From Caballeronia sp. BR00000012568055 (GTDB lineage: Bacteria > Pseudomonadota > Gammaproteobacteria > Burkholderiales > Burkholderiaceae): a stretch of DNA of 64,000 bases. Shown piece by piece: positions 57,618-59,385 of the stretch. The translations under genes were made by a program, and so were the position numbers. The notes below the pieces were generated by a model. That model worked only from the letters and a program-made list of their open reading frames with translations, did not search any database and was not told the origin of the DNA. The stretch is taken from assembly GCF_029439455.1 (NCBI RefSeq), contig NZ_JAQFVG010000075.1, forward strand, positions 62,001 through 126,000, read 5' to 3'. Numbering within the stretch: the first letter of the stretch is position 1; each line of letters opens with the position of its first letter.

Positions 57618-58088
57618 ATGAATATCGTAAGAAATCCTAAGCAAATTCCTCCGCTGCTGCGGATGGCGATGGCCGCATCGCTGGTGGCGAGTACGGCCTG
57701 CCACGCGCAACTCGGCTCGACATTCAACGCCGTCGCCATTTCGAGCGATGCCGTCGCGCATCACGCGCAAGGCGGGCTGCTCAATTACCGCGAAACCACC
57801 GACGCGAACGGCATCGTCGTGCATCAATACGTCGATTCGAGCGGCACGGTGTACGCCGTGACCTGGCGCGGCCCCGCGATGCCCGATGTGCAATCGCTGC
57901 TCGGCACGTACTTTCAGCGCTTCGCGACGGGCGCGAGCGCATCGGCGGGCGCGGTGGGACTGCATGCCGCGCGCGTCGCGGATGGCGATCTCGTGGTCGA
58001 GAACCAGATGCGGCTGCGCGAGTTCAGCGGACGCGCGTGGCTGGTGAGCGCGCTGCCGGCGGGTGTATCGACCGCTGATATTCAATAA
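57618..58088 (+). CDS. Secreted DUF2844 family protein
   Basis: A 156-residue protein with a signal peptide (basic start, hydrophobic about 13-27, probable cleavage after ACHA near residue 30). The mature part carries the family pattern: GSTF near the start, YVDSSGTVYAVTWRGPAMPDV in the middle and a LLGTYF segment. No enzyme motif is visible. It is followed after 16 bp by DUF3443, and the two families are typically neighbours in Burkholderia as I remember. It may be a partner, substrate or inhibitor of the DUF3443 protein; that is inference. Confidence 0.88.
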   Translation: MNIVRNPKQIPPLLRMAMAASLVASTACHAQLGSTFNAVAISSDAVAHHAQGGLLNYRETTDANGIVVHQYVDSSGTVYAVTWRGPAMPDVQSLLGTYFQRFATGASASAGAVGLHAARVADGDLVVENQMRLREFSGRAWLVSALPAGVSTADIQ

Positions 58089-58104: not shown

Positions 58105-59385
58105 ATGACCATCCGCACCTTTATTTCGATGATCGCCCTCTCCTGCGCGCTCGCTGCCTGTGGCGGAGGCGGAGGCAGCACGCAGAACACGAGCACGCCC
58201 GCGCCCGCCGCGCCTGCCTCCGCGAGCGCGCCAGGGACGGCAAGCGCGCCCTTGAGCGCGAGCGCACCGACCGCCGCGAGCACCACGAGCACCACCGTTC
58301 CTCAATCGACGACGCCGAACGTACAAGCCGTCCAGGTCACAAGCACGGCCACCGGCACGCGCAACATGCTGCAAACGAGCGTGACCATTTGCGTGCCCGG
58401 CACGAACAACTGCCAGACCATCAACAACATTCAGGTCGATACCGGCTCGCAGGGTCTGCGTGTGCTCGCATCGGCGCTGAATTCGTCGATTGCGCTGCCG
58501 CAGGTGCAAACCGCGTCGGGCGCGGGCGCGGGCGAATGCGCTTCGTTCGGTACGGGCTACACGTGGGGCGCGGTGCGTCAGGCCGATGTACGCATGGCCG
58601 GCCAGGTCGCCGCATCGACGTCGATACAAGTAATCGCGGATTCCGCCACCGGCAGCGCCCCGACCGACTGCACCCAATCCGGCCTGCCGATGCTCAACGC
58701 CACCAGCCTGCGCGGCAACGGCATTCTCGGCGTCGGACCGTTCACGGCGGATTGCGGCGCGGGCTGCGCGTCCACCGCGATGCCGCGCTGGTACTACGCC
58801 TGCAACGGCAGCAGTTGCACCAATAGCGCGCTTGCCGCCGCGCAGCAGGTGACCAATCCCATCGCCAACTTTCCCGCCGATAACAACGGCGTGCTGATCG
58901 AACTGCCCGCGGTTCCGGCGACGGGTGCATCGACGGTGGCCGGGACCATGACCTTCGGTATCGGGTCGCAGGCGAACAACCTGCTCGGCTCGGCGACGGT
59001 GCTGAAATCGAACTCGCTGACGGGCTATGTATCGACGAGTTTCAGCGGCAGCGCGTACGCATCGAGCTTTATCGACAGCGGATCGAACGGCATGTTCTTT
59101 CCTTCAACGACGCTCACGAAATGCGGCGTGTGGTATTGCCCCGCCACGCAACAGGCGCTGAACGCGACCATCAACTCGTCGAGCGGCGCGACAACGGTGG
59201 TCGCATTCAACGTCGGCACATCGACCACGCTGATATCGACCGGCAACTTTGCGTTCAACAATCTCGCCGGCAGCGCGAACGGTTACTTCGATTGGGGCTT
59301 GCCGTTCTTTTTCGGACGCCGCGTATTCACCGCGCTCGAAGGCCGCGTGACGCCCGCGGGCAACGGGCCGTACTACGCGTTCTAG
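58105..59385 (+). CDS. DUF3443 lipoprotein with pepsin-like aspartic protease motifs
   Basis: A 426-residue lipoprotein: lipobox LAAC with Cys19, then Gly5 and an Ala/Ser/Thr/Pro-rich tether to about residue 75. The globular part has VDTGSQGLRV (DTGS 112-115) and FIDSGSNGMFFP (DSGS 324-327), the paired active-site loops of bilobal aspartic proteases, plus GILGVG at 206-211, which matches the GILGLG landmark between them. Cysteines occur in close pairs (96/103, 217/221, 233/238, 340/345), as in pepsin disulfides. The C-terminus has a GLPFFFGRRVFTALEGR segment like the last lobe strand. The family is annotated only as a domain of unknown function; a protease role is inference. Confidence 0.88.
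   Translation: MTIRTFISMIALSCALAACGGGGGSTQNTSTPAPAAPASASAPGTASAPLSASAPTAASTTSTTVPQSTTPNVQAVQVTSTATGTRNMLQTSVTICVPGTNNCQTINNIQVDTGSQGLRVLASALNSSIALPQVQTASGAGAGECASFGTGYTWGAVRQADVRMAGQVAASTSIQVIADSATGSAPTDCTQSGLPMLNATSLRGNGILGVGPFTADCGAGCASTAMPRWYYACNGSSCTNSALAAAQQVTNPIANFPADNNGVLIELPAVPATGASTVAGTMTFGIGSQANNLLGSATVLKSNSLTGYVSTSFSGSAYASSFIDSGSNGMFFPSTTLTKCGVWYCPATQQALNATINSSSGATTVVAFNVGTSTTLISTGNFAFNNLAGSANGYFDWGLPFFFGRRVFTALEGRVTPAGNGPYYAF

Follow-up and report, generated by a model that had tools for sequence, protein, structure and literature searches.

A DUF3443 lipoprotein of Caballeronia as a predicted two-lobed, pepsin-like aspartic protease paired with DUF2844

The window analysed here is a stretch of 64,000 nucleotides from Caballeronia sp. 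BR00000012568055 (contig NZ_JAQFVG010000075.1, positions 62,001 to 126,000). It carries a DUF3443 gene directly downstream of a DUF2844 gene. The DUF3443 protein is probably a lipid-anchored aspartic endopeptidase of the cell envelope, with a two-lobed pepsin architecture and with the DUF2844 protein as its dedicated partner. Its open reading frame (ORF) encodes 426 residues without internal stops, and the product matches PF11925 (DUF3443) with 449.6 bits (cut-off 25) over model positions 2-367 of 367. The features of the locus are as follows.

57618..58088, plus strand: DUF2844 protein with a signal peptide by eye (PF11005, E 1.3e-34); close by and in the same orientation at 81 of 87 loci
58105..59385, plus strand: DUF3443 lipoprotein, predicted bilobal pepsin-like aspartic protease, 426 residues (PF11925, E 1e-134; models and fold searches)
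58105..58161, plus strand: lipoprotein signal peptide ending in the lipobox LAAC (Cys19), by eye; a lipobox is present in most relatives
58162..58314, plus strand: linker, residues 20-70 (51 residues), 90% Gly, Ser, Thr, Pro or Ala
58438..58449, plus strand: first active-site loop, DTGS 112-115; Asp112 and Ser115 in 54/54 aligned relatives
58546..58557, plus strand: presumed flap tip, FGTG 148-151, at the place of pepsin Tyr75; Phe in 45 and Tyr in 9 of 54; tip of a β-hairpin in the model of the relative L045
58720..58737, plus strand: GILGVG 206-211, N-lobe psi-loop; Gly209 and a preceding hydrophobic pair in 54/54
59074..59085, plus strand: second active-site loop, DSGS 324-327; Asp and Gly in 54/54, Ser or Thr at 325 and 327 in 54/54
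59290..59322, plus strand: DWGLPFFFGRR 396-406, presumed C-lobe psi-loop; Gly398 in 54/54; compare SILGLPLMNNYFTVFDRS in the bacterial PF00026 protein L089

Conserved motifs and export signals

The DTGS (112-115), GILG (206-209) and DSGS (324-327) motifs lie exactly where an earlier sequence-only reading of this DNA had placed them, with the two Asp residues 212 positions apart and the GILG 94 positions after the first. When residues 20-426 were shuffled 200,000 times, a pair of D[TS]G[ST] motifs arose in 243 shuffles and was spaced by 150-250 residues in 58 (approximately 3 in 10,000). Conservation is a stronger check on the motifs than shuffling. Relatives were drawn from two overlapping genome samples and from 29 titled-record loci; one alignment (A1) omits L025, L037, L040 and L044 from these 29. 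In an 84-row alignment, which holds two repeats (L001, the window gene itself, and L088, identical to L014), Asp112 is present in 83 rows with one masked X, Asp324 in 83 with one broken copy lacking it, and Gly209 in all 84. The broken L037 lies outside the 84, and L012, a weak match, had no ORF match. Counts over 54 refer to the diverse rows of this alignment (A2; 26-75% identity to the window protein), which leave out 22 close named relatives, the masked L025, L040 and L060, the broken or cut L044 and L063, both repeats, and L065.

Thirteen invariant columns are listed for A2, and Asp112, Ser115, Gly117, Gly209, Asp324, Gly326 and Gly398 occur in 54/54 rows. Loss of the DTGS and DSGS residues in most family members, set out beforehand as a refutation, was thus not seen. 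The first loop reads D[TS]GS in 52 rows, and Ala replaces Gly in the other two (DTAS). One of these is L002 (G000:C354:97456-98538), a second DUF2844-DUF3443 pair of the window's own genome. The second loop reads D[ST]G[ST] throughout, and position 327, at the Thr218 place of pepsins, holds Ser in 44 rows and Thr in 10 but not Ala, which at this place has been linked to neutral pH (PMC2761423; this and the other papers below are cited from excerpts). The hydrophobic-hydrophobic-Gly psi motif of the N-lobe is kept in all 54 rows; at the C-lobe psi site, a hydrophobic residue directly precedes the invariant Gly398 in all 54, and the residue two before it is Asp in 39. The first loop continues as DTGSxGLR, in which the basic position is Arg in 51 rows and Lys in three; we take this position to be the Trp39 place of pepsins.

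Among 83 ORFs, a strict lipobox pattern was found in 66, of which two (L048 and L006) are doubtful, with the match more than 200 residues ahead of the domain. The remaining 17 comprise eight with a clear lipobox by eye, two with a possible one, four that are masked, broken or cut, and three (L049, L063 and L077) with no lipobox in the visible sequence by either approach. The conserved cysteines (Cys96 and Cys103 in 54 rows; Cys145 in 53; Cys189 and Cys233 in 51 each; Cys238 in 49; Cys340 and Cys345 in 46 each) suggest disulfides of an exported protein. The linker resembles the disordered Ala/Pro-rich regions that PglL enzymes glycosylate, a resemblance only (PMC8423747).

Fold matches and relatives among aspartic proteases

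The models of two different DUF3443 members, built on alignments that share members, have pepsin-fold aspartic proteases as their top structural matches, with A1 enzymes the best. A predicted fold other than a bilobal pepsin one, also named in advance as a refutation, was not what emerged. The N-lobe is modelled well in the second model only. The flap Phe marks the start of the turn that joins strands 75-82 and 88-99 in the L045 model. L045 itself comes from a short contig whose title names a Spirochaetes metagenome-assembled genome, and its DUF3443 protein is 42% identical to that of the window; the contig may be mis-binned.

At the sequence level, a search of the family profile against the PDB (E<=10) returned four matches: three rhizopuspepsins at the top (E 0.036-0.055), aligned at a D-loop, and CurA (0.62). 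The window protein alone, searched against the PDB with phmmer at the same threshold, matched one chitinase (E 4.3) through its linker. Scanned against Pfam at E<=1, the 54 members hit 18 families, and PF00026, the A1 pepsin family, is not one of these. Asp_protease_2 (PF13650) was touched by two of the members (best E 0.0054) and gag-asp_proteas by one (0.01), and unrelated families appear at similar E-values. Neither PE-PGRS_C (PF20729) nor PF13650, a model of 90 positions, is matched by the window protein at E<=10.

A weak link runs through a tandem relative. L086 (430-2472) and L087 (390-2399) encode lipoproteins of 681 and 670 residues, each with two tandem bilobal modules and four D-T/S-G motifs (at 86, 264, 386 and 571 in L086). 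Module 1 of L086 matches PE-PGRS_C (E 2.6e-5, 24.1 bits, under the cut-off of 33) and module 2 matches DUF3443 (E 6e-5, 22.6 bits, under the cut-off of 25); overlapping stretches match PF13650 (E 3.2e-4) and DUF3443 (E 3.8e-4), both below the cut-offs. On sequence similarity, L086 thus appears to be the best bridge, a weak one, between DUF3443 and PE-PGRS_C. A further variant, L085 (328-2319), has one module with DSKA as its second motif, is fused to approximately 300 more residues, and is likely inactive.

Compared with the A1 pepsins, including the shewasins, DUF3443 shares the two D-T/S-G-S/T loops, the GILG psi-loop and the pepsin-type fold of its models, but its flap is mostly Phe, Arg or Lys stands at the Trp39 place, and there is no significant sequence match. 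The sequence-only reading had proposed a pepsin-type aspartic protease of the shewasin kind. The invariant motifs, the two models and the weak PE-PGRS_C bridge support its bilobal architecture. They do not extend to a shewasin-type A1 placement: PF00026 is not matched at E<=10 by the window protein, the flap is mostly Phe, and a signal peptide with lipobox is present. Bacterial A1 homologues are described without signal peptides (PMC2761423) and shewasin D as mainly cytoplasmic (PMC4814920), whereas DUF3443 bears a lipoprotein signal. Separately, three bacterial PF00026 proteins (L094, L095 and L096) have signal-peptide-like N-termini by eye, unlike the A1 homologues of that first excerpt. DUF3443 fits best as a probable new family within clan AA, the pepsin/retropepsin superfamily, and not as a member of MEROPS A1. 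It is rated as pepsin-like in its presumed working and outside A1 by two tested features.

Two other bacterial groups offer comparisons. The secreted RloA protease of Pseudomonas, a relative of RimB, is likewise a clan AA enzyme with a signal peptide in a proteobacterium, and its gene shares an operon with rloB and rloC; RloA is retropepsin-like with DTG followed by Ala, whereas DUF3443 has both lobes in one chain (PMC12239564). The PE-PGRS_C aspartyl peptidase-like domain (PE_PGRS16/Rv0977, structure 4ehc) belongs to mycobacterial PE proteins of type VII secretion, whereas DUF3443 proteins are lipoproteins that have a conserved Cys of their own, and PF20729 is unmatched by the window protein at E<=10. 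PecA belongs to PF20729 as well and is the working precedent for the proposed DUF3443 mechanism. This mycobacterial protein is surface-located, carries DTG and DSG, cleaves itself and needs its first Asp (PMC6819658).

The DUF2844 partner and the neighbourhood

The DUF2844 stop lies 16 bases before the DUF3443 start. Across the 87 loci, which include L001 and L088, an iterated profile finds DUF2844 on the same strand upstream in 78 and downstream in three (L071, L076 and L080). The six loci without it are L025, L044 and L045, where the DNA reaches only approximately 200-280 bases upstream of the match, and the tandem or fused L085-L087. Among 399 genomes of the order Burkholderiales, DUF3443 occurs in 50 (48 over the cut-off) and DUF2844 in 44 (E<=0.001), all of them within the 50 (hypergeometric P 2e-52, a value that ignores kinship among the genomes). 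The six genomes with DUF3443 and no DUF2844 at this threshold are G470, G508, G577, G632, G661 and G762; G470 and G632 carry a divergent DUF2844 by the iterated profile (L076 and L080), and G508 and G762 hold sub-cut-off tandem or fused variants. One genome region (G322:C3:402062-404464) has two DUF2844 matches without a scored DUF3443 beside them, where four of seven candidates were scored; these may be extra pairs or orphan DUF2844 genes.

In the phylum sample, DUF3443 occurs in 11 of 398 genomes (10 over the family cut-off). The confinement to Burkholderia implied by the sequence-only reading thus gives way, in the titled records and genome samples, to relatives across Burkholderiales and a few beyond. 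An alignment scan of viral contigs picked out 20 stretches with no relative among them, and one DNA pattern had no match there. A decayed copy was observed in a record titled Candidatus Burkholderia brachyanthoides (L037, 2092-3388), where three ORF fragments, spread over two frames, make up the gene.

Of the genes at 21 loci (20 others plus a part of the window), none but DUF2844 and DUF3443 is shared by 21/21. The next cluster (12/21) is a shadow frame antisense to DUF3443, with coordinates checked in L097 only, and the one after it reaches 5/21. In the window, the upstream neighbours encode an NlpB/DapX lipoprotein and malate synthase, and the downstream neighbours a carboxymuconolactone decarboxylase, an alpha/beta hydrolase, a lyase and a thiolase. 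Because no other gene, the shadow frame aside, recurs in more than 5/21 loci, the DUF2844-DUF3443 pair is taken as the unit and the flanking genes as incidental. In three loci (L061 3-1373, L064 1-1476 and L065 2605-4080), DUF3443 is followed immediately by a lipoprotein-like ORF. Calpain (PF00648, E 3e-8) is matched by the ORFs of L064 and L065, which the L061 one resembles by eye, so that two unrelated protease types adjoin.

Proposed mechanism, alternatives and significance

The protein would be exported and, as the lipobox suggests, lipidated at Cys19, and the long flexible linker would hold the catalytic domain away from the membrane. The two lobes would then meet such that Asp112 of the N-lobe and Asp324 of the C-lobe activate a water molecule for attack on a substrate peptide bond held under the hairpin flap (approximately residues 145-157). 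The substrate would be an envelope or extracellular protein, and DUF2844, as dedicated partner, might be a regulator, a folding helper or a substrate. Catalysis is favoured because Asp is invariant at both sites.

Several observations weigh against such a protease. The models have mean predicted local distance difference test (pLDDT) values of 49.0 and 55.6, with 33.8-39.1 for the other four models of the second prediction; the C-lobe is weak in both, mostly at pLDDT <50, and the Foldseek template modelling (TM) scores of the pepsin rows that lead both lists are approximately 0.25-0.39. PF11925 is the only Pfam family that the window protein matches at E<=10. With hhalign, whole-family DUF3443 against PF00026 reaches a probability of 5%, and gap-filtered alignments against six bacterial PF00026 proteins (A3) reach 8-23% over 8-32 columns; all DUF3443-pepsin runs give 5-23% over 8-37 columns, essentially the D-loop alone, compared with 43% over 88 columns for the positive control of pepsin N-lobe against pepsin C-lobe. 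The DUF3443 N-lobe scores 27.0 with the pepsin C-lobe and 24.5 with the pepsin N-lobe, which leaves the sequence-based assignment of lobes uncertain. The flap residue, placed by motif and by the L045 hairpin, is Phe in the window protein as in most rows; as of 2009 no Phe75 homologue had been shown to be active, and Tyr75Phe weakened the activity of rhizopuspepsin (both from the excerpt of PMC2761423). The link to DUF2844 is not universal either: none was found for L085-L087 in the available flanking DNA, nor within 11 kb around a divergent DUF3443 on a Caballeronia plasmid (L129, 4977-6047), which keeps both DTG motifs. A filamentous-haemagglutinin-type gene lies two genes away from the latter.

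In five hhalign comparisons, the best alignment places D-loop on D-loop each time, with a score that 0/60 column shuffles attain; since shuffling the columns disrupts the D-loop, this control mainly shows a loop match and not a whole-lobe match. The top lobe pair is C-lobe with C-lobe (29.3). A circular permutation was suggested by the profile search, which put the C-lobe best on the N-terminal active-site loop of rhizopuspepsin, and by the place of Cys340/Cys345, which sit like the first pepsin disulfide. It was not adopted: the flap, GILG, second loop and terminal psi-loop follow the unpermuted pepsin order, and the two C-lobes form the best pair.

The chief rival, a doubtful but substantial one, is a pseudoprotease: a pepsin-fold lipoprotein whose cleft binds peptides or glycans without cleavage, like the xylanase-inhibitor (TAXi) proteins of plants. 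The flap Phe (45/54) and the Arg or Lys in 54/54 at the place of pepsin Trp39 speak for it. Binding-only descendants such as TAXi tend to lose active-site residues; against this rival, the Asp of each loop, Gly in the second loop and Ser in the first persist in 54/54 members down to 26% identity. It ranks first among the alternatives because of the Phe flap and of PE_PGRS16, which has the fold and in which no activity was found (PMC6819658). A true MEROPS A1 pepsin, transferred from a eukaryote or from shewasin-type bacteria, would explain the bilobal motif order and the A1 enzymes among the best fold matches. This origin is very improbable, since PF00026 is found neither in the protein at E<=10 nor in the window's own genome, the flap and Trp39 places differ, and the sequence bridge goes to bacterial PE-PGRS_C. 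Least probable of all is that the motifs arose by chance or within another fold, with no aspartic protease architecture. Low sequence-level scores and low model confidence would fit it; the rarity of the motif pair in shuffles (58/200,000), the invariance, and the pepsin fold common to the models of two different members, albeit built on overlapping alignments, argue otherwise.

The lipid-anchored aspartic protease remains our preferred account. A more specific version is put forward tentatively, at somewhat less than even chances: DUF2844-DUF3443 would be a two-gene module of envelope proteolysis, in which a lipid-anchored, two-lobed pepsin of ancient bacterial descent, having Phe at the flap and Arg next to its first active-site loop, is controlled or used by a dedicated secreted partner and is related to mycobacterial PecA.

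No paper on DUF3443 or DUF2844, by name or Pfam accession, was found in full text, a coverage outside which most subscription journals lie. The text matches to 'PF11005' are all malaria-parasite papers by title, presumably through gene numbers, and the matches listed for bacterial pepsin-like lipoproteins contain nothing on the DUF3443 family. Aspartic proteases are described as relatively rare among bacteria and generally cytoplasmic there (PMC6819658). The proposed protease, if true, would add an exported, lipid-anchored, bilobal type to bacteria and would assign a role to both DUFs in one step. It also bears on whether two-lobed pepsins arose in bacteria: if the module interpretation is true, two-lobed aspartic proteases would be an old exported bacterial lineage and not scattered eukaryotic imports.
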